Source: Hydrogenophaga sp. BPS33 (GTDB taxonomy: Bacteria; Pseudomonadota; Gammaproteobacteria; Burkholderiales; Burkholderiaceae_C). From it: a stretch of DNA of 64,000 bases. Of this stretch, positions 5,871-15,671 are shown one piece after another. The stretch is taken from contig NZ_CP044549.1 of assembly GCF_009859475.1 (NCBI RefSeq), forward strand, positions 3,906,001 through 3,970,000, written 5' to 3'. The notes below the pieces were generated by a model. It had not been told where the DNA came from and did no database searches. It saw nothing but the letters and a program-made list of their open reading frames with translations. Every line of letters begins with the position of its first letter. Position 1 is the stretch's first letter. Both the position numbers and the translations under genes were made by a program.

Positions 5871-5909
5871 GTGGCCACCCGGGGGAAGCCCGCGTGGCCA
5901 CATTTATTT
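5871..5909 (+). terminator. Probable intrinsic terminator
   Basis: GTGGCCAC at both ends of a 31-base stem-loop (5871-5901) with a partly pairing GGG/CCC interior, followed by ATTTATTTA. It separates the small membrane-protein gene from the caspase operon. Confidence 0.6.
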
Positions 5910-5921
5910 ACAAGTTGCCAT

Positions 5922-5950
5922 TTGCCTGACCCCGGCGGACACTACAGAAT
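5922..5950 (+). promoter_or_regulatory. Candidate promoter of the caspase-CHAT-TIR operon
   Basis: TTGCCT (5922-5927), 17 bases, then CAGAAT (5945-5950) resembles a sigma-70 promoter and sits 43 bases before the first ATG of the operon. It lies just after the probable terminator. The -10 match is imperfect. Confidence 0.35.
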
Positions 5951-5993
5951 CCGCGACGGATTTCACATTCAGAAACCACCCGGGAGGAGCGCC

Positions 5994-6896
5994 ATGGTCA
6001 ACAAGGCAACCAGCGAATCCAAGAGGCCCAAGGCCCACTCGCTGCACATTGGTCTCAACGAAGTCAGCGCGGCCCATTACGAAGGTTGGACCGGGCCGCT
6101 GGCGGCCTGTGAATTCGACGCGCACGACATGGCCGCGCTGGCCAAGGCCCAGGGCATCAAGAGCAGCTTGCTCATCACCAAAAAGGCCACACGGGCACAG
6201 GTGCTGGCGGCGATCCGCAAGGCCGCCGAGGCGCTGGTCAGCGGTGACTTTTTCTTCATGACCTTCTCCGGCCATGGCGGACAGATCCCCGATGTGAGCG
6301 GCGAGGAAGAGGACAAGCTGGACGAAACCTGGTGTCTGTTCGACGGCCAGTTGATCGACGACGAGCTGTACTACGAGCTGAGCCGCTTCAAGGCGGGTGT
6401 GCGCATCCTGGTGCTCTCCGACAGCTGCCACAGCGGCACCGTCGTTCGTGCCCGCGTGCCCGCCGCCGCAACGCCCGAGCAGCGCCCGCGCATCATGCCG
6501 CGCCCTGTCGCGCTGCGGGTCTACGCGGGCCACAAAGCCTTCTACGACAAGCTCCAGAGCGATGTGGCCAAGGCCGCGGGCGGCCGTGTGGAAGATCCCG
6601 ACACCGCCCTGGCCAATGTAACTGTGAGCACCCGGCTCACCGCCATCGTCAAGAAGTTCTCACCCTCGCTGATCCTCATCTCGGGATGCCAGGACAACCA
6701 GTTCTCCATGGACGGCAACCACAACGGGGCCTTCACCGAGCAGTTGCTGAGTGTGTGGAACAACGGGGGATTCAAGGGGAGCTACGCCAGCTTCCACGCG
6801 CGCATCCGAGCGGGCATGCCGCCCTCGCAATCGCCCAACCTGTTCACGCTCGGTCCTGCGGCGGCCTTTCTGAAGCAGGCGCCTTTCGCGGTCTGA
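5994..6896 (+). CDS. Caspase-family (peptidase C14) protease
   Basis: A 300-aa stand-alone caspase/metacaspase-like protein. The catalytic dyad is visible: His94 in [12 protein letters not shown] and Cys145 in [11 protein letters not shown], each at the end of a hydrophobic beta-strand as expected. The N-terminal [12 protein letters not shown] and the [17 protein letters not shown] stretch fit the p20 start. No signal peptide, membrane segment or fused sensor domain is present, so it is predicted to be cytoplasmic and to act with partners. The ATG at 5994 is preceded by GGGAGGAG. It is the first gene of a five-gene operon (42 bases to the next gene). Substrates are unknown; processing of an operon protein such as the CHAT or metalloprotease product is an inference. 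Confidence 0.93.
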
Positions 6897-6938
6897 GCCG
6901 CACCACTGCATTTCCGCTTCTCCCACCAAGGAGGTCTC

Positions 6939-7886
6939 ATGCTGGGTATTCAGGACCACCGCCTCACCGGCGACGACGTGAGCTTTCGGCAGACACCCAA
7001 CGCGGGCGGCAGCCTGCGCGCACGCTATGTGCTGCTGCACTACACCGCGGGCCGCAACCTGGAGAGTTCGGTGGAGTCCTTGTGCACGAAGAAGCCGCAG
7101 GGCAATGCGTCGGCGCACATCGTGCTCGGGCGCGATGGCCGCATCGTGCAGCTCGCGCCGTTCAACGTGGTCACCTGGCACGCCGGTGTGAGCCAGTGGA
7201 ACGGGCTCGATGGGCTGAACCACCACGCCATCGGCATCGAGATGGACAACGCCGGCCTGTTGCAGCGCGATGGCGAACGCTATGTGTCGTGGTTCGGCAA
7301 ACCCTACCCCGACGACGAAGTGCGCCTGGCCGAACACCGCCATGGCGGCGGCGTGAAGCCCTGGCACCACTACACCGAGGTGCAGATCGCGCGCGCGCTT
7401 GAACTCTGCGAGCTGCTGGTGGCGCACTACGGCCTGGAAGACGTGCTGGGCCACGAAGACGTGGCGCGCGGCCGCAAGATCGACCCGGGCCCGGCGTTCC
7501 CGCTTGGCGCGGTGCGCGCGCGCGCCGTCGGCCGGGGTGCCGATGTGTCGCCGCGCCTGGTGGTCAATGCCTCCAGCCTGAACATCCGCAGCGGTCCGGG
7601 CGCCGAATTCCCCAAGGTCGCGCCCGCGCTCAAACGGGGCGCCGAGCTGGTGCTGCTCGAACCGCAAGACCGCTGGAGCCGCGTGGCGGTGGTCGGCGGC
7701 ACCGACCTGGAAGGCTGGGTCTGCAACGACTTCGTGAGCCGCTTGCCCGCCACGCGCTCGGGGCCCGGCGCTGCCGTGCTCTCACGCGCGCAGCGGGCTT
7801 TGGCACCGACACGCGCCACGCCGCGCAAGGCGGCGGCGAAACCTCCCGCCCGAAAGGCTGCAACCAAGGCGCGCAGCAGAACCTGA
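6939..7886 (+). CDS. N-acetylmuramoyl-L-alanine amidase with SH3 domain
   Basis: A 315-aa protein. Residues about 25-185 form an Amidase_2/AmpD-like domain, a zinc enzyme cutting the MurNAc-L-Ala bond of peptidoglycan. Probable zinc ligands are His34 (LLHYTAG), His172 (GHEDVARG) and Asp182. Residues about 205-268 form a bacterial SH3 domain (LNIRSGPGAEFPKVAP), and the last 50 residues are a Lys/Arg/Ala-rich tail. There is no signal peptide, which is odd for an enzyme whose usual substrate is in the periplasm; it may act on cytosolic muropeptides, need lysis, or be exported another way. AAGGAGG precedes the ATG. The downstream gene starts 36 bases later. Confidence 0.92.
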   Translation: MLGIQDHRLTGDDVSFRQTPNAGGSLRARYVLLHYTAGRNLESSVESLCTKKPQGNASAHIVLGRDGRIVQLAPFNVVTWHAGVSQWNGLDGLNHHAIGIEMDNAGLLQRDGERYVSWFGKPYPDDEVRLAEHRHGGGVKPWHHYTEVQIARALELCELLVAHYGLEDVLGHEDVARGRKIDPGPAFPLGAVRARAVGRGADVSPRLVVNASSLNIRSGPGAEFPKVAPALKRGAELVLLEPQDRWSRVAVVGGTDLEGWVCNDFVSRLPATRSGPGAAVLSRAQRALAPTRATPRKAAAKPPARKAATKARSRT

Positions 7887-7922
7887 GCCCGATCGCCGCC
7901 CGCCCATGAAGAAAGTGCCCGC

Positions 7923-10900
7923 ATGAAAACCCCCTCCTCTGCCCCGGCCATCACCTTCATCGTGCGGGGCCAACCGCAGCCGATGGCAGGCGCCACGCGG
8001 GGCGGCGCCACGAGCGCCGCATCGCTGTCGTCGTTCGGCGGCCAAGGCACGCTCACGCAGCGCGTGGTGGTGGGCGCCATGCGCGGCAGCAGCGACACCG
8101 TGCGTGTGAGCGCGCGGCCCGGCCTGGACGCCGTGGTGCTGCACATCAGCAACGGCCCCTCGCTCATGCTGCACCCCGAGACCGCACGCGACCTGATGCT
8201 GGCGCAATCGGGCCTGACGCGCAGCACCGCCGCTGGCCGCTCGCGCGGTCAAGCGCTGCCCAACGACGTGAACGTGCCCACGCAGCTCAGCTGGCAGGGC
8301 CTGGAGCAGGCGGGCGCGGCCACGCGCGGCACTGCGCGCGGGCGCATGGGCGAGGTGCTGCTCTCGGCCATCGAAGTGGTCACCGGCCTGCTGAAGGAGC
8401 CTGCGGCCAAGCTCACCGCGGCGAAGATCGGCGCGCGCGTGGACGGGCAGGTCGATCCCGGCGTATACGCCCTGCGGGCCGACGCTTTCTCCGCGCCGCT
8501 CAAAGGCCGTCCGAAGCTCGACAAGATCCCGCTGCCCGACCAGCCCGACGCGCCGGTGCTGGTGCTGCTGCACGGCACCTTCTCCAACACCCAGGGCACC
8601 TTCGGCAAACTCTGGCAGGAACACCCACACAAGGTGCGCGAGCTGTTCGCGCGCTATGGCGACCGTGTCTACGGCTTGGACCACCCCACCCTGCTGGCCA
8701 GCCCGATCGAGAACGCGCTCCTGCTCGCGCGCGCCCTGCCCAAAGGAGCGCGGCTGCACCTGCTCACCCACTCGCGCGGCGGGCTGGTGGCCGAGGTGCT
8801 GGCGCGCGTGTGCGCACGCCCCGAGCTAGACGAACGCCCGCTGACCGCGTTCAAGGACCCGGCCCACCGCCAACAGCTCAAGGCCCTGCGCGAACTGGCC
8901 GCCGAGCTCAAGGGCCGCGACGTGCGCGTGGAACGCGTGGTGCGCGTGGCCTGCCCGGCGCGCGGCACCCTGCTCGCGTCCAAGCGGCTGGACGCTTATG
9001 TGTCGGTGCTCAAGTGGTCGCTGGAGCTGGCCAACATCCCGGTCGCGCCCTTGCTGATCGACTTCATCGGCGAGGTCGCCAGCCAGCGCACCGACCCGGC
9101 CTTGCTGCCCGGCCTGGAGGCCATGACGCCGCTGAGCCCGCTGGTGCAATGGCTGCACGAGAGCGACGGCGGCGCGCCCCTGCCGGGGCAGTTGCGTGTG
9201 GTGGCGGGGGACATCCAGGGCGACTCGATCATGTCCTGGGTCAAGACCTTGCTGGCCGATGCCTTCTACTGGACCGACAACGACCTGGTGGTGCAGACGC
9301 GTTCCATGTACGGCGGCACGCCGCGCGCGCCAGCGGGCGGCCACGCGGCGGCCACCTTCGTACTGGAACGCGGCGGCAAGGTGACGCACTTCGCCTACTT
9401 CAGCCACCCGCGCACGGCCGAAGCCATTTGCAGCGCGCTGATCGAAGACACGCCGGCCGGCTTTCGCCCGATCGGCCCGATGTCCTGGGCCGGCAGCACC
9501 AGCGACGGCTTGCGCGGCCGCGCCCGTGCGGGCACCGAGGCTGCAGCGGCCGAGCGCCCCGCCGTCATCCTGCTGCCCGGCATTCTGGGCAGCCACCTGG
9601 CGGTGGATGGCAAACGCGTCTGGCTGAGCATGCGCATCCTCGGCGGCCTCGACAAGCTGGGCTACCAGGAAGGCGCGAACAATGTGCAGGCGGACGGGCC
9701 GATCGGCATGGTCTACGACGCCCTGGCCGAGTTCCTCTCGGCCACACACCAGGTGATCGAGTTCTCGTTCGACTGGCGCCGCCCGATCGAAGAGGAGGCC
9801 GCCCGCCTGGCGGGCGTGATCGACCAGGCCTTGAGCGCACGCGCCACCACCGGCCAGCCGGTGCGGCTGATCGCGCATTCCATGGGCGGCGTGGTCGCGC
9901 GCACGGTGCAGCTGGAACGCCCCGACGTCTGGCAGCGCTGGCTCGAACGCCCGGGCTCGCGCCTGCTGATGCTGGGCACGCCCAACGGCGGCTCGTACGC
10001 GCCCATGCAGGTGCTCACCGGCGACGACACCATGGGCAATGCGCTGTCCTCCTTCGGCCTGCCCTTCCGGGACCAAAAGGCACGCCAGCTGATGGCCGCC
10101 ATGCCCGGTCTGATCCAGCTGCAGGCCGGCCTGCTCGACACCGCGCAAGGCCTGGCGCAGAGCGCGCGTTGGCAGGCCCTGGCCGAGCAGGACATGCAGA
10201 CGCTGGAGCAGGCCAACTTCTGGCATGGCGAGGACAGCCTGCGCACCATCTACCAATGGGGCGTTCCTCCGCAGGCCGTGCTCGACCGCGCGGTGGCCCT
10301 GCGCCAGCGGCTGGACCGCCAGCGCGACGAGGCCTTGGCCGGGTTCCGGGACCGTGTGGTCATGGTGGTGGGCCGGGCGTCGAGCACACCGGCCGGCTTC
10401 GAGATCGATGCGCGCGAAGGCTTGGTCTACCTCAACCAGCCCGAAGGCGGCGACGGGCGCGTCACGCTCTCCAGCGCGCTGCTGCCGGGCGTGCGGGCTT
10501 GGAAAGTCGATGCCCCGCACGGCGATCTGCCGGACGTGGCACACGCCTTCGAGGCCTACCTGGACCTGCTGCAACACGGTGACACCCAGCGCCTGCCGCT
10601 GGTCACCACGGTGCCTGCCACACGCGGCACCGGCGCGGACACGCCCGCCGCCCTGGCGCGCAGCCGGCCTTCACGGCAGCGCAACCTGCTTGTGGAGCCG
10701 CCTGCCGATGCCCGCGAAGTGCTCGGCTTCGCCGACGAGGCGCCCGCCGCCACCGCACCGGCCCACACCGCGCTGCGCATCACGGTCATCAACGCCAACC
10801 TCAAGTTCGTGAGCCACACGGTGATGGTCGGCCACTACGTGTCGTCCACACTCACGGGCACCGAAGGGGTGGTGGACCGCTTCATCGGCGGCGTGATGTC

Positions 10901-13535
10901 GGCCTCGCTGGCCGCGGGCCTGTACCCCGAGGCCACCGGCACGCACCAGATCTTCACCAACAACCGGCAGGACCCCGATAACCCGCTGGCCCTGCCGCGC
11001 CCACCGCACGTGGTGGTGGCGGGCCTGGGCGAAGAAGGCAAGCTGCGCAGCGCAGCGCTGAGCGCCACGGTGCGCCAGGCCACGCTGGCCTGGGCGCAGC
11101 GCGTGGCGGAAACACCGGGCCAGGGCACGGCCCAGTTCGAGATGGCCTGCACCTTGATCGGCAGTGGGGGCAGCGGCATCAGCGTGCCCACCGCAGCCCA
11201 GGCCGTGGCCCAGGGCGTGCGCGAGGCGAACGAAAAACTGGCCGCCGGCGGTTGGCCGCAGGTCAGCCACTTGCGCCTGGTCGAGCTCTACCTCGACCGC
11301 GCTACCGAAGCCTGGAGCGCGCTGCGCCTGCTGAGCCAGGCCGCGCCCGAACACTTCGTGCTCACGCCGACGGTGGAGTCCGGCATCGGCGCGCTGCGCC
11401 GCCCGCTCGACAGCGGCTACCGGGGCACAGCCTACGATTTCATCAGCGCCGTGACGCAGACCGACGACACCGGCGAACCCAGCATCGTCTACACGCTGGA
11501 CACCCAGCGCGCCCGCGCCGAGGTGCGCGCGCAGGCGACCCAGGCCCAACTGGTGGGCGAGCTGGTGCGCCGCGCCTCGAACGATGCCAACCGCGACCCG
11601 CAGATCGGCCGCACGCTGTTCCAGCTGCTGGTGCCGGTGGAAATGGAGGCCAGCCTGGGCGGCACCAGCGAACTGCTGCTGGAGCTGGACGACGGCACCG
11701 CCGGCATTCCCTGGGAATTGCTGGATGCGCCGAACGATGGCCGCGGTGGCCCGCAGGCGCCCTGGGCCATCCGCAACAAGCTGCTGCGCCGCCTGCGCAC
11801 CGTGGCCTTCCGCACCCAGGTGAGCGACGCCCGGCTGGAGGACGCGGTGCTGGTGATCGGCGAGCCGCTGTGCGACAGCGCCCTGTACCCACCGCTGCCC
11901 TCGGCGCGCGCCGAGGCCGAGGCGGTGCGCGACGCGCTCGGCGAGGTACTTGGCGGCGACCGGGTACACGCGCTGATCGCCCCCGACGACGGCTGCGGCC
12001 CCGACGCGGCAGCCGTCACCAACGCGCTGCTCGCGCGGCGCTACCGCATCGTGCACATTGCCGGCCATGGCGAACCCGAGCTCGAACGCCCAGGCAAGCC
12101 GCCCTTGCTGCGCGGCGTGGTGCTCAGCGACGGCACCTTCCTCGGACCGCGCGAAGTGCAGGCCATGCGGGTGGTGCCCGAACTGGTGTTCCTCAACTGC
12201 TGCCACCTTGCAGCCGACCCCAGCAAGCTCCTCCAGGAGGGCTACGACCGCGCGCGTTTCGCCGCGGGCGTGGCCAAGCAGCTGATCCGCATCGGTGTGC
12301 GCTGCGTGGTGGCCGCCGGCTGGGCGGTGGAGGACGACGCGGCCAACCAGTTCGCCGTGGCCTTCTACAAGGCCCTGCTGTCGGGCCGGCGCTTCATGGA
12401 CGCGGTGCAGGCGGCGCGCACCGCCGCCTATGCCGCCAGCCCCGGCGGCAACACCTGGGCCGCCTACCAGTGCTACGGCGATCCGGAATGGGTCTGGCAG
12501 GCCGACGAGGCCGAGGCCCGGCGCACGCCCGCGCCACTGGCACAGGTCTACGCCGGCATCGCCACCCCCGTGGCACTGGCCCTCGCCCTGGAGACCCTGG
12601 CCATCCAGAGCGCCACGCAAGGCGCCGCGCCCGAGAGCCAGCGCGAGAAGATCCGCTACCTCCAGGCGCGCTTCGAGGCCGACTGGGGCGGCATGGGCGC
12701 GGTGGCCGAGGCTTTTGGCGTAGCCTTCAAGGCCGCGAACGACATCGAGCAGGCGCTGCACTGGTACCGCCGCGCGGTAGCGGCCAACGACGGCAGTGCC
12801 TCGGTCAAGGCCAGCGAGCAGCTAGCCAACCTGACCGCGCGGCAGGCCTGGGAACGCGTCGACCGTGCCCGTCGTCACCATGCCAGCGCCGCTCAACTGC
12901 AGCCACTGCTGGCGCAAAGCCGCGCCGACATCACCGCCGCGCTGGGCATGCTCGAAGCCCTGGTCACCGTGGCGCCCACCGTGGAACGCGAGAGCCTGCT
13001 GGGGTCCGCCTGCAAGCGGCTGGCCATGCTCGAAGGCGTGGCCAGTGCCCACGCGGCACGCGCACAGGCCGCTGCCCGCATGGCCGAGCACTACGGCCAT
13101 GCCGAGGCCCTGGCCATTCAGGACGGCCGCAGCGACGCCTTCTACCCCGCCCTGAACCTGCTCGCCGCCGAACTGGTGGCACACGGCAACGACCCACATT
13201 GGCCGGGCCCGGACGCGCAGCGCCTGCGCCGCGTGCGCGAGAGCCTGGAGCACAAGCGGCGCGACGACCCGGACTTCTGGAGCGTGGCCGGCCTGCCCGA
13301 GCTCGGGGTGTACGAAGCCCTGGCCACCCGCAGCTTGCACCAGGCGGCGCCCACGCTGCTCGCGGCCTTCGAAGAATTGCACCAGCGCGCGGGCACGCCA
13401 TGGATGTGGGCGTCGGTCGCCGACCAGCTCACCTTCGTGCTCGAACAGCACGAGGGCGGCAACGGCGCCCACGCACGCGCCGCGGCCGAGGTGTTGCAAC
13501 GGCTGCGTGGGTACGGCGGCCTGGGTACGGCTTGA
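7923..13535 (+). CDS. Giant CHAT-domain protein with two alpha/beta-hydrolase domains
   Basis: An 1870-aa multidomain protein, predicted cytoplasmic. About 1-200 is an unrecognised N-terminal region. About 205-505 is an alpha/beta-hydrolase (VLLHGTFSN; nucleophile Ser284 in THSRGG). About 545-860 is a second, LCAT/lipase-like hydrolase (ILLPGILGSHLAVDG; Ser653 in AHSMGG). About 950-1230 is a domain with VGHY and VVVAGLGEEGKL motifs. About 1231-1526 is a CHAT caspase-like protease domain with His1382 (HIAGHGE) and Cys1427 (FLNCCH). About 1535-1870 is alpha-helical and partly TPR-like (ALHWYRRAVAAND). It lies between the amidase and TIR genes with short spacers. Esterase plus protease chemistry in one chain suggests a regulated toxic effector, which is an inference. 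All expected catalytic residues are present, so it appears intact. Confidence 0.92.
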   Translation: MKTPSSAPAITFIVRGQPQPMAGATRGGATSAASLSSFGGQGTLTQRVVVGAMRGSSDTVRVSARPGLDAVVLHISNGPSLMLHPETARDLMLAQSGLTRSTAAGRSRGQALPNDVNVPTQLSWQGLEQAGAATRGTARGRMGEVLLSAIEVVTGLLKEPAAKLTAAKIGARVDGQVDPGVYALRADAFSAPLKGRPKLDKIPLPDQPDAPVLVLLHGTFSNTQGTFGKLWQEHPHKVRELFARYGDRVYGLDHPTLLASPIENALLLARALPKGARLHLLTHSRGGLVAEVLARVCARPELDERPLTAFKDPAHRQQLKALRELAAELKGRDVRVERVVRVACPARGTLLASKRLDAYVSVLKWSLELANIPVAPLLIDFIGEVASQRTDPALLPGLEAMTPLSPLVQWLHESDGGAPLPGQLRVVAGDIQGDSIMSWVKTLLADAFYWTDNDLVVQTRSMYGGTPRAPAGGHAAATFVLERGGKVTHFAYFSHPRTAEAICSALIEDTPAGFRPIGPMSWAGSTSDGLRGRARAGTEAAAAERPAVILLPGILGSHLAVDGKRVWLSMRILGGLDKLGYQEGANNVQADGPIGMVYDALAEFLSATHQVIEFSFDWRRPIEEEAARLAGVIDQALSARATTGQPVRLIAHSMGGVVARTVQLERPDVWQRWLERPGSRLLMLGTPNGGSYAPMQVLTGDDTMGNALSSFGLPFRDQKARQLMAAMPGLIQLQAGLLDTAQGLAQSARWQALAEQDMQTLEQANFWHGEDSLRTIYQWGVPPQAVLDRAVALRQRLDRQRDEALAGFRDRVVMVVGRASSTPAGFEIDAREGLVYLNQPEGGDGRVTLSSALLPGVRAWKVDAPHGDLPDVAHAFEAYLDLLQHGDTQRLPLVTTVPATRGTGADTPAALARSRPSRQRNLLVEPPADAREVLGFADEAPAATAPAHTALRITVINANLKFVSHTVMVGHYVSSTLTGTEGVVDRFIGGVMSASLAAGLYPEATGTHQIFTNNRQDPDNPLALPRPPHVVVAGLGEEGKLRSAALSATVRQATLAWAQRVAETPGQGTAQFEMACTLIGSGGSGISVPTAAQAVAQGVREANEKLAAGGWPQVSHLRLVELYLDRATEAWSALRLLSQAAPEHFVLTPTVESGIGALRRPLDSGYRGTAYDFISAVTQTDDTGEPSIVYTLDTQRARAEVRAQATQAQLVGELVRRASNDANRDPQIGRTLFQLLVPVEMEASLGGTSELLLELDDGTAGIPWELLDAPNDGRGGPQAPWAIRNKLLRRLRTVAFRTQVSDARLEDAVLVIGEPLCDSALYPPLPSARAEAEAVRDALGEVLGGDRVHALIAPDDGCGPDAAAVTNALLARRYRIVHIAGHGEPELERPGKPPLLRGVVLSDGTFLGPREVQAMRVVPELVFLNCCHLAADPSKLLQEGYDRARFAAGVAKQLIRIGVRCVVAAGWAVEDDAANQFAVAFYKALLSGRRFMDAVQAARTAAYAASPGGNTWAAYQCYGDPEWVWQADEAEARRTPAPLAQVYAGIATPVALALALETLAIQSATQGAAPESQREKIRYLQARFEADWGGMGAVAEAFGVAFKAANDIEQALHWYRRAVAANDGSASVKASEQLANLTARQAWERVDRARRHHASAAQLQPLLAQSRADITAALGMLEALVTVAPTVERESLLGSACKRLAMLEGVASAHAARAQAAARMAEHYGHAEALAIQDGRSDAFYPALNLLAAELVAHGNDPHWPGPDAQRLRRVRESLEHKRRDDPDFWSVAGLPELGVYEALATRSLHQAAPTLLAAFEELHQRAGTPWMWASVADQLTFVLEQHEGGNGAHARAAAEVLQRLRGYGGLGTA

Positions 13536-13551
13536 GCACCGCCGCGGCGCC

Positions 13552-14625
13552 ATGAACCGTATCTTCATCAGCTACCGCGCGTCCGACGGCAAGAAGGACG
13601 CCGACCGCTTGTGCGCCGACCTCAGCCGCCTCTACGGCGAAGACCAGGTGTTCTTCGACAAGCAAGACCTGCGAGGAGGCACCTCGTGGCGCAGTGCGAT
13701 CATGGCCGCGCTGGGCAACAAACCGGTGGTGCTGCTGCTCTTCACACCCGACCTGCTGGGCATGCAGCACCCCGAGGGCGGGCGGCGCATCGACCACGAG
13801 GACGACCCGATCCGCGGGGAGATCCTCACCGCGCATCAACATGGCGCGATCGTCATTCCGCTCTTCACCGAAGGCATGACGGTCCCCAGCAACGCCGAAC
13901 TGCCCGAGCCGCTGCGGTTTCTGAAAGAGGCCCATGCCCTGAAGCTGCGCACCGAAGACTGGGCCACCGACCTGGCGCGCATCGTGGCCGACCTGCGCAG
14001 CCACGGCATCGCCCCGAAGCGCGACGCCGCCGACGAGCAGGACAAGCCCAAGCGCACCATGGGCCAGCGCATGCAACGCAGCCTCATGTGGGTGGGCGCC
14101 TTCTTCGTCGGACTGTTCGTGCTGGGCCTGCTGGTCTCGGCATTCGAAGGCGAGGACGAACCGGTGGCCAGCGGCGGCCCGGACCCGATCGTCGCCCTGG
14201 GGCAGCAGGCGCTGCAGGCCATCGTGCCGCCCGCGGCCAACGTGGCGGGCATCTGGTGGGCGATCGACGAATCCAACCGGCGCCTGCGCGTGCAGCTCAC
14301 GGTGGTCGGCAACCTGGTGGAATTGCAGACCGACCCCTTTCCCGTAGGCTGGTACCCCGAATGGCAGACCTATGCCAACGGCATGCGCGGCCAGGGCCTG
14401 GTGGTCAACGAGGTGCGCTACCACGGCCGTGGCGTGCTTGGCAATGTGATGGGCGTGCCACGCATCGAGATGCCGTACCAGGCCCTCACGGGCGATGGCC
14501 GCGGTCCGCTGGACACCGGCAGCGTCGTGCTCAACGCCAGCGCCGACGGGCGCGAACTCACCGGCACGTTCTGGAGCAACGGGCAGCAGGCCGAATCGCC
14601 CCTGCGGTTGGTGCGCCAGCCCTGA
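13552..14625 (+). CDS. TIR-domain membrane protein
   Basis: A 357-aa protein. Residues 1-150 are a TIR domain (start NRIFISYRASDGKKDADRLC, then VFFDKQDLRGGTSW and VVLLLFTPDLLGM). A basic stretch (KPKRTMGQRMQR) precedes one transmembrane helix at about 179-199, which predicts a cytosolic TIR and a periplasmic C-terminal domain (about 225-357, beta-rich, ending GTFWSNGQQAE...LRLVRQ). By eye the position of the usual catalytic Glu of NAD-cleaving TIRs is occupied by Ser48, so NADase activity is doubtful. The start is 16 bases after the CHAT gene stop. An in-frame upstream GTG/ATG region lies within the CHAT gene and was not used. It is probably the sensor or adaptor of the operon. Confidence 0.88.
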   Translation: MNRIFISYRASDGKKDADRLCADLSRLYGEDQVFFDKQDLRGGTSWRSAIMAALGNKPVVLLLFTPDLLGMQHPEGGRRIDHEDDPIRGEILTAHQHGAIVIPLFTEGMTVPSNAELPEPLRFLKEAHALKLRTEDWATDLARIVADLRSHGIAPKRDAADEQDKPKRTMGQRMQRSLMWVGAFFVGLFVLGLLVSAFEGEDEPVASGGPDPIVALGQQALQAIVPPAANVAGIWWAIDESNRRLRVQLTVVGNLVELQTDPFPVGWYPEWQTYANGMRGQGLVVNEVRYHGRGVLGNVMGVPRIEMPYQALTGDGRGPLDTGSVVLNASADGRELTGTFWSNGQQAESPLRLVRQP

Positions 14626-14645
14626 ATCCTCACCTGGAGAACGCC

Positions 14646-15671
14646 ATGACCCACCCTGTTCACGTCTGCACCCAGCGCGTGCTGCCCGCCGAGCTCATGC
14701 GCTTCCAACCCACCACGCGCAGCGAAGGCCGAACGCGTGCCATTGCCCTGCTCGGCAAGCTCTGGATGAACGGCAGCACCCTGCGCGTGCGCTTCATGGG
14801 CGGCACGGCGGAGCAACAGGCCAAGGTGCGCGAACAGGCCGCCTGGTGGACCGCGCATGCCAACCTCACGTTCGATTTCAACAATGCGCCCGATGCAGAG
14901 ATCCGCGTCGCCTTCGACACCACCAAAGGCGCCTGGTCCTACGTGGGCACCGACTGCCGCGGCATCCCGACGGACCAGCCCACCATGAACCTGGGTTTCA
15001 TGGACGGCGGCACGGTGGCACACGAATTCGGCCACGCCATCGGCCTCATGCACGAGCACCAGAACCCGGCCGGTGGCATCGAGTGGAACGAGGCCACCGT
15101 GATCCGCGACCTCTCGGGTCCGCCGAACAACTGGAGCGAAGCCACCATCCGCCACAACGTGCTCAACAAATACCGCGCCGACCAGATCAACGGCACCGCC
15201 TTCGACCCCGATTCGGTGATGCTGTATTTCTTCCCGGACAGCTGGGTCCAGAGCGGCAAGGGCACGCGCGCCAACCCGGTGCTCTCGGCCAACGACAAGG
15301 CCTTCATCGGCGGCGCGCGCGCCTACCCCAAGCCGGCGCCAACCGTGATCGATGCGAAGGAACTCAAGGTCGGCGCGACCCGGCGCACCTCGGCCGCCAT
15401 CGGCCAGTTCGGCGAGGAAGACCTGTTCCAGTTCACCGTGTCCGACGGCGGCAGCCACACCGTGGACACGCGCGGCTCCACCGACGTGGTGATGAAGCTC
15501 TTCGGCCCCGACAGCGCGACCGCCGTCATCGCCGAAGACGACGACAGCGGCGTGGACACCAACGCGCTCATCCGCGCCGACCTGATCCCCGGGCGTTATT
15601 ACGTGCAGGTGCGGCACTACAACCGCGCCAACGGCATGGGCAAGTACACGGTGAAGGTGCGCAAAGCCTGA
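14646..15671 (+). CDS. Metzincin-type zinc metalloprotease with PPC-like domain
   Basis: A 341-aa protein. The zinc site HEFGHAIGLMH (residues 126-136) gives the HExxHxxGxxH pattern of metzincins such as matrixin and astacin families, and DPDSVMLYF downstream supplies a Met-turn-like segment. Residues about 225-341 look like a pre-peptidase C-terminal (PPC) beta-sandwich (GEEDLFQFTVSDGGSHTVDT). Metzincins of this kind are normally secreted, but no signal peptide or clear pro-peptide cysteine switch is seen, so it may be intracellular or leave by lysis. GGAG precedes the ATG. It is the last gene of the five-gene operon, 20 bases after the TIR gene. Confidence 0.9.
   Translation: MTHPVHVCTQRVLPAELMRFQPTTRSEGRTRAIALLGKLWMNGSTLRVRFMGGTAEQQAKVREQAAWWTAHANLTFDFNNAPDAEIRVAFDTTKGAWSYVGTDCRGIPTDQPTMNLGFMDGGTVAHEFGHAIGLMHEHQNPAGGIEWNEATVIRDLSGPPNNWSEATIRHNVLNKYRADQINGTAFDPDSVMLYFFPDSWVQSGKGTRANPVLSANDKAFIGGARAYPKPAPTVIDAKELKVGATRRTSAAIGQFGEEDLFQFTVSDGGSHTVDTRGSTDVVMKLFGPDSATAVIAEDDDSGVDTNALIRADLIPGRYYVQVRHYNRANGMGKYTVKVRKA

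Follow-up and report, generated by a model that had tools for sequence, protein, structure and literature searches.

The five-gene operon addressed here is a real, conserved and selected module on the chromosome of Hydrogenophaga sp. BPS33. It lies in a stretch of 64,000 nucleotides (contig NZ_CP044549.1, positions 3,906,001 to 3,970,000 of the forward strand), called the window throughout, and encodes a caspase-like protease, an AmpD-like peptidoglycan amidase, a very large multi-enzyme protein, a TIR protein and an astacin-like metzincin (Table 1). The 1870-amino-acid (aa) product of the third gene, together with its homologues, is named BIG, and the constant core of the module is the pair of caspase and BIG. 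The gene content, the folds, the intact active sites, the selection on the genes, and their association both in cis and in genome content are established directly. Judged from these sequences, and with a probability of about 0.5, the operon would serve as a chromosomal, modular, TIR/caspase-linked immune module acting through suicide or abortive infection.

Association of the caspase with BIG

The association in cis was counted over 106 distinct BIG loci, a set that omits duplicates and BIG pieces shorter than 1400 aa and includes loci cut by contig ends. Genes of the relatives' loci were predicted with a caller trained on BIG; a partner was counted when it lay in BIG's same-strand run within four genes, and the 1126 other genes of those loci served as the control. 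A caspase stands in the run at 50 of the 106 loci (46 of the window type, 4 of another C14 type), compared with 0/1126 in the control. Genes of the TIR, DUF4062 or TPR-S (tetratricopeptide repeats-sensor) type, grouped as the "NAD" class after nicotinamide adenine dinucleotide, are found at 20/106 loci (control 8/1126). Ten of these 20 are in Hydrogenophaga, and 3 others rest solely on a TPR-S family whose N-terminus was labelled deoxyribohydrolase-like by eye, Pfam giving only TPR-S, other TPR and MAP3K_TRAF_bd. Peptidoglycan-hydrolase genes are in the run at 21/106 loci (15 amidases, all in Hydrogenophaga, and 6 M15 peptidases elsewhere; control 3/1126), and 17/106 loci combine a caspase with the NAD class.

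Caspase and BIG also co-occur in genomes even where their genes lie apart. The family sample consisted of 299 genomes, 69 of which matched the BIG search; 49 were kept, and the 20 whose lipase or CHAT matches were short or weak were dropped. The window-type caspase is found at E<1e-60 in 27 of the 299 genomes, and 24 of these carry BIG (Fisher p 8e-19); at E<1e-15, 31 of 36 carriers are BIG genomes. Once the 15 genomes with adjacent genes are set aside, the caspase is present in 9/34 BIG genomes versus 3/251 others (p 3e-7); the Fisher tests used N=300 for the 299 genomes, and caspase adjacency was assigned by hand from tables. The caspase is non-adjacent in 9 of the 24 genomes, one of which (G133) has it in the same cluster at a distance of about 8 kb. 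Some C14 match occurs in 35/38 BIG genomes searched, a figure that is uninformative alone, having no BIG-negative control. This co-occurrence lends support to a preliminary description of the operon, which had seen a protease, lipase and TIR cassette suited to defence or self-killing; conservation of such a cassette is borne out. That description had also proposed to look for all five genes together elsewhere; the caspase and BIG do recur together, at the loci and in the genome profile, but the full five were found only in Hydrogenophaga.

The detached caspases have neighbours of their own. A gene matching a TIR-TPR cluster comes after the caspase in G170, and the caspase of G021 overlaps a short BIG with the later domains only. 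Those of L236 and L237 share downstream neighbours, and groEL/groES-like genes, read from the sequence, lie upstream in L236. The extended cluster of G133 (L102/L245) runs from the caspase through a SLOG/deoxyribosyltransferase-like protein, a TPR-S-family C-terminal-like gene, a 433-aa protein, an AAA gene and a 1248-aa protein without a Pfam match, to BIG. A family of multi-pass membrane proteins (L077:6171-7916; full members of 460-581 aa, 8 in the cluster), for which no Pfam match reaches its cut-off, is encoded upstream of the caspase or BIG in several genera.

Five intact open reading frames on one strand, separated by 42, 36, 16 and 20 bases from 5' to 3', had been reported for the window, and both positions and gaps are confirmed. 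Against relatives, the ratio of nonsynonymous to synonymous substitution rates (dN/dS) is 0.33-0.41 for the TIR gene and 0.12-0.29 for each of the other four, so the five are not chance reading frames. Among the 16 Hydrogenophaga loci with usable flanks (the window, L031-L036, L038-L041, L056, L073, L077, L084 and L096), the full set of five is present in 7, all but the metzincin in 3, caspase, amidase and BIG in 5, and BIG alone in 1; the order of the genes is unchanged. The amidase was seen in 17 further loci among those examined, each in Hydrogenophaga or a near relative, and the metzincin gene in 7 loci in all. Such clade restriction and dispensability of the amidase, TIR and metzincin genes would suit functionally separate neighbours, namely a caspase-BIG pair with three hitch-hikers. 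We regard this arrangement as unlikely: the genes are tightly spaced in a constant order, each of the five is under purifying selection, and other TIR-type and peptidoglycan-hydrolase genes recur beside BIG in other genera.

Chromosomal site and inheritance

In Hydrogenophaga the site of the operon is fixed, before ahpF and ahpC (both assigned by Pfam); upstream are what we take to be phosphoenolpyruvate-synthase and regulator genes and, in some genomes, transporter genes. A convergent ahpF directly follows the operon in 13 of the 15 other Hydrogenophaga loci. BIG is present in 17 of 60 Hydrogenophaga genomes (18 matched the search, and the weak hit G348 was set aside), in 20/300 genomes of the order at E<=1e-40, and in 4/398 of the phylum sample at E<=1e-30, the window's own genome being counted each time. 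The empty site was sought in 18 of the 43 BIG-negative Hydrogenophaga; 17 gave ahpF and 16 were examined (G337 left out). In 14 of the 16 the neighbours are unchanged and none of the five genes is matched at 1e-10; of the other two, L174 differs in context and L159 retains a remnant. This remnant (L159:2690-3340), between a transporter gene and ahpF, reads as the beginning of the caspase, the final part of the TIR gene and both ends of the metzincin, which indicates that the operon was once present in that genome and later decayed.

A second BIG site is found in other genera, between rlpA-like and short-chain-dehydrogenase-like genes (18 rows, 17 distinct contigs); its identity comes from one member tested, which gave DPBB_1, and from reading the dehydrogenase-like gene in the sequence. 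The cargo at this site changes among TIR, DUF4062, TPR-S and M15 peptidase genes. Just beyond the bounding dehydrogenase gene, and outside BIG's run, one locus has a SIR2-like and TIR_2 gene (L074:8695-10071). Carriage on mobile elements was considered and rejected for want of close plasmid or viral copies: 8 of 72,556 plasmid records match BIG, at about 29-33% identity and none spanning 80% of it, and two loci on viral contigs share only a lipase stretch with it. Copies of BIG 51-54% identical to that of the window occur in metagenome-assembled genomes labelled as Nitrospira (L052, L083) and Acidobacteria (L046), phyla other than that of the window, and may reflect either transfer or mis-binning. 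Pairwise distances of BIG correlate with those of the caspase (Mantel r 0.52, n=34) and of the amidase (r 0.77, n=14).

Stress-induced death is the main rival explanation. It takes the same enzymes for a programmed-death or stress-proteolysis module without an anti-phage role, fired by an internal trigger such as oxidative stress or envelope damage, and it gains from the fixed ahpCF neighbourhood, the largely vertical inheritance and the lack of close plasmid or viral carriage among the records searched. Patchy presence within Hydrogenophaga, the exchange of TIR/DUF4062-type genes and the changing cargo of a second site are, on the other hand, typical of conflict systems, and we judge an internal trigger to be somewhat improbable.

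Several further points weigh against an immune module. A caspase of the window type is lacking in 25/49 BIG genomes at 1e-60 and in 18/49 at 1e-15. With some loci cut by contig ends, the run is without a caspase at 56/106 and without any of the three gene classes at 51/106; the 106 loci are moreover related by descent, and neither their counts nor those over related genomes are independent. At L035 (H. taeniospiralis) BIG stands without any partner at the locus. BIG follows the chromosome (BIG-AhpF distances, Mantel r 0.76, n=16), and the Hydrogenophaga site is not a defence island; where such an island had been proposed as a check, the operon turned out to sit beside ahpCF and not among recognised defence genes. 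Of the 8 matching plasmid records 4 were examined; one has no gene table, and in the other three no annotated caspase lies beside the distant BIG-like gene, the tables there being incomplete by design. The TIR protein of the window falls below every Thoeris cut-off (PADLOC ThsB 0.0023; NCBIfam ThcB4 28.8 bits versus 220), and we know of no ADP-ribose-binding M17_N domain, the macro-like domain of BIG being closest to that family.

The flanks of the operon had been described as an upstream terminator and no same-strand link downstream. A GTGGCCAC hairpin with a T-rich tail was indeed read at about 5871-5909, upstream of the caspase gene, but it is missing from the output of a terminator scan restricted to loops of 3-8, in which terminator-like sites are no commoner than in shuffles. 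The next gene downstream (15812) is on the same strand, contrary to that description, although its gap is wider, at 140 bases. The conserved upstream block has invariant columns across 8 aligned upstream regions, seven from the 16 loci and one from the remnant, and is possibly a regulator or promoter site; a sigma-70 promoter scan found 0 sites where 0.5 were expected and did not list the block.

Proteins of the operon and a proposed mechanism

Table 1. Features of the operon, in window coordinates
Feature	Position	Strand	Evidence and remarks
Conserved block upstream, candidate control region of the operon	5900..5957	+	first bases overlap hairpin end
Caspase-like protease, 300 aa	5994..6896	+	Pfam Peptidase_C14 2.8e-21; His94/Cys145
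AmpD-like peptidoglycan amidase, 315 aa	6939..7886	+	Pfam Amidase_2 3.8e-26
BIG, 1870 aa	7923..13535	+	alpha/beta-hydrolase, LPLA2/LCAT-type phospholipase, macro-fold M17_N-like domain, CHAT protease, TPR-S
BIG first alpha/beta-hydrolase (DUF7379), residues ~205-510	8535..9452	+	Pfam DUF7379 4.6e-30; Ser284
BIG LPLA2/LCAT-type phospholipase fold, residues ~541-890	9543..10592	+	Pfam LCAT 7.4e-9; Ser653
BIG macro-like fold, residues ~948-1140	10764..11342	+	closest sequence family Peptidase_M17_N
BIG CHAT protease domain	11604..12482	+	Pfam CHAT 1.2e-33; His1382/Cys1427
BIG TPR-S	12744..13166	+	Pfam 4.3e-8, above cut-off
TIR protein, 357 aa	13552..14625	+	Pfam TIR_2 3.4e-10; one membrane segment; C-terminal beta-barrel
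Astacin-like metzincin, 341 aa	14646..15671	+	Pfam Astacin 2.8e-9 and PPC domain; HExxHxxGxxH

All active sites named in the preliminary description (His94/Cys145, Ser284, Ser653 and Cys1427) are present. It missed the macro-fold domain, the phospholipase A2-type fold and, in relatives, the exchangeable TIR/DUF4062-type neighbours. The caspase, at 76.7 bits against a cut-off of 21.4, is the sole C14 match in the 6.77-Mb host genome, and its dyad H94 and C145 is kept in 48/48 aligned relatives. The catalytic residues of BIG are kept overall in 84-87 of 87 aligned proteins. In the first hydrolase S284 is found in 84/87 and D454 and H489 in at least 97%, and Asp454 and His489 are the likely triad partners of Ser284, as Asp844 and His866 likely are of Ser653. 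Fold comparison of the structure model gives the second hydrolase a phospholipase A2-type fold, with the matches of the 1195-residue BIG model dominated by this hydrolase and residues 1-200 and the first hydrolase barely tested. For the macro-like domain, Peptidase_M17_N is the only sensible sequence match (7/33). The CHAT domain scores 117.3 bits versus a cut-off of 24, with H1382, C1426 and C1427 in 87/87.

The amidase has a weak SH3_3 match, at 26.6 bits just below the cut-off of 27. In the TIR protein E90 is invariant (11/11 aligned sequences), a membrane segment was placed by eye at about residues 178-196, and the predicted structure, weak overall (predicted local distance difference test, pLDDT, 72.6; predicted template-modelling score, pTM, 0.42), has a beta-barrel at residues 233-355 with lipocalin- and avidin-like fold matches at low TM-scores. 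Seven starts of the metzincin gene were compared, and a Cys in the N-terminal segment is present in all 6 that cover the position. The best NCBIfam match of the metzincin is "beta-glucuronidase AbsR1" (3e-47; 161 bits versus a cut-off of 650), which is a strange name for a sequence of metzincin type.

The lipase, amidase and metalloprotease could also be thought of as a secreted or contact-delivered antibacterial toxin set, as had been suggested earlier. Nothing points there, and such a role is very unlikely: TIR, caspase, CHAT and TPR-S are domains of a cytosolic type, the amidase has no signal peptide to be seen on reading, and reading of the operon disclosed neither a signal peptide nor an immunity gene, with no systematic search for these or for secretion genes.

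Returning to the immune module, we infer each signalling and killing step, as well as phage as the trigger. Infection or envelope damage would trigger the membrane-anchored TIR protein, or elsewhere another TIR- or DUF4062-type gene product, which would cleave NAD and thereby produce a signal. BIG would sense that state through its macro-fold domain, its TPR-S domain or both, and its CHAT protease would turn on. The CHAT protease and the separate caspase might then activate one another or their targets. Finally, the two serine hydrolases of BIG would attack membrane lipids, giving the leaderless amidase access to peptidoglycan, and the metzincin could add proteolysis after clipping of its Cys-bearing N-terminal segment. 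More tentatively, with the odds against it, BIG may represent a new class of bacterial executioner that senses an NAD-derived signal through its macro-fold and TPR-S domains, fires CHAT and brings phospholipases of its own. It would act together with a dedicated caspase, in cis or in trans, team with exchangeable NAD-cleaving sensors and peptidoglycan hydrolases, and dismantle proteins, membrane and wall in order. Should this hold, TIR-caspase immunity would reach as far as a lipase-CHAT executioner found across Burkholderiales, with a protease switch and the destruction of membranes coupled in one bacterial protein. Hydrogenophaga offers a natural series of presence and absence at one chromosomal site.

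Comparison with known systems

PADLOC 2023 did not assign the five proteins to one defence system and gave weak matches for the caspase and TIR only; searches of an open-access library found no description of the operon. The preliminary description knew of no system with exactly this set, and the module fits no described system on the features tested. Craspase TPR-CHAT is a CHAT protease with TPR repeats. BIG likewise joins a CHAT protease to TPR repeats; it differs in being without a CRISPR part and in having its CHAT fused to two lipase-type hydrolases.

In type IV Thoeris, as reportedly described by Rousset et al. in 2025, TIR-made N7-cADPR activates a caspase. Similarly, TIR-family and caspase genes share one operon in the window, and at L082 the gene between the caspase and BIG has TIR_2 and matches Thoeris ThsB (PADLOC 2.2e-47). 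The difference is that the constant partner here is the 1870-aa lipase-CHAT protein, the TIR being optional. TIR signals of type IV Thoeris are likewise reported to activate a caspase-like effector (PMC12847820). Other links to immunity are a single run at L113 with DUF4062-family, TPR-S, caspase, BIG and LysM-M15 genes, DUF4062 proteins being reported as TIR-like NADases of an antiphage system (PMC13174449), and the G133 cluster, where one protein matches a model for TIR effectors of the cyclic oligonucleotide-based antiphage signalling system (CBASS) type at 3.3e-21 and the AAA gene has a bpMoxR match below cut-off. Type II Thoeris TM-macro effectors (PMC11204291) resemble BIG in that a macro fold lies within a protein of a TIR-containing operon, whereas the domain of BIG is M17_N-like by sequence and sits inside a lipase/CHAT protein, its ligand binding being putative.

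In the VMAP (MoxR-vWA) ternary conflict systems, Kaur et al. 2020 (PMC7159879) describe caspase domains as always accompanied by a neighbouring alpha/beta-hydrolase gene, with TIR, DRHyd and peptidase modules swapped. The window operon shows the same pairing of caspase and alpha/beta-hydrolase, whereas none of its five proteins has a MoxR, vWA or VMAP domain. On the features tested, the module stands near both type IV Thoeris and these caspase-alpha/beta-hydrolase pairs, and is a member of neither.
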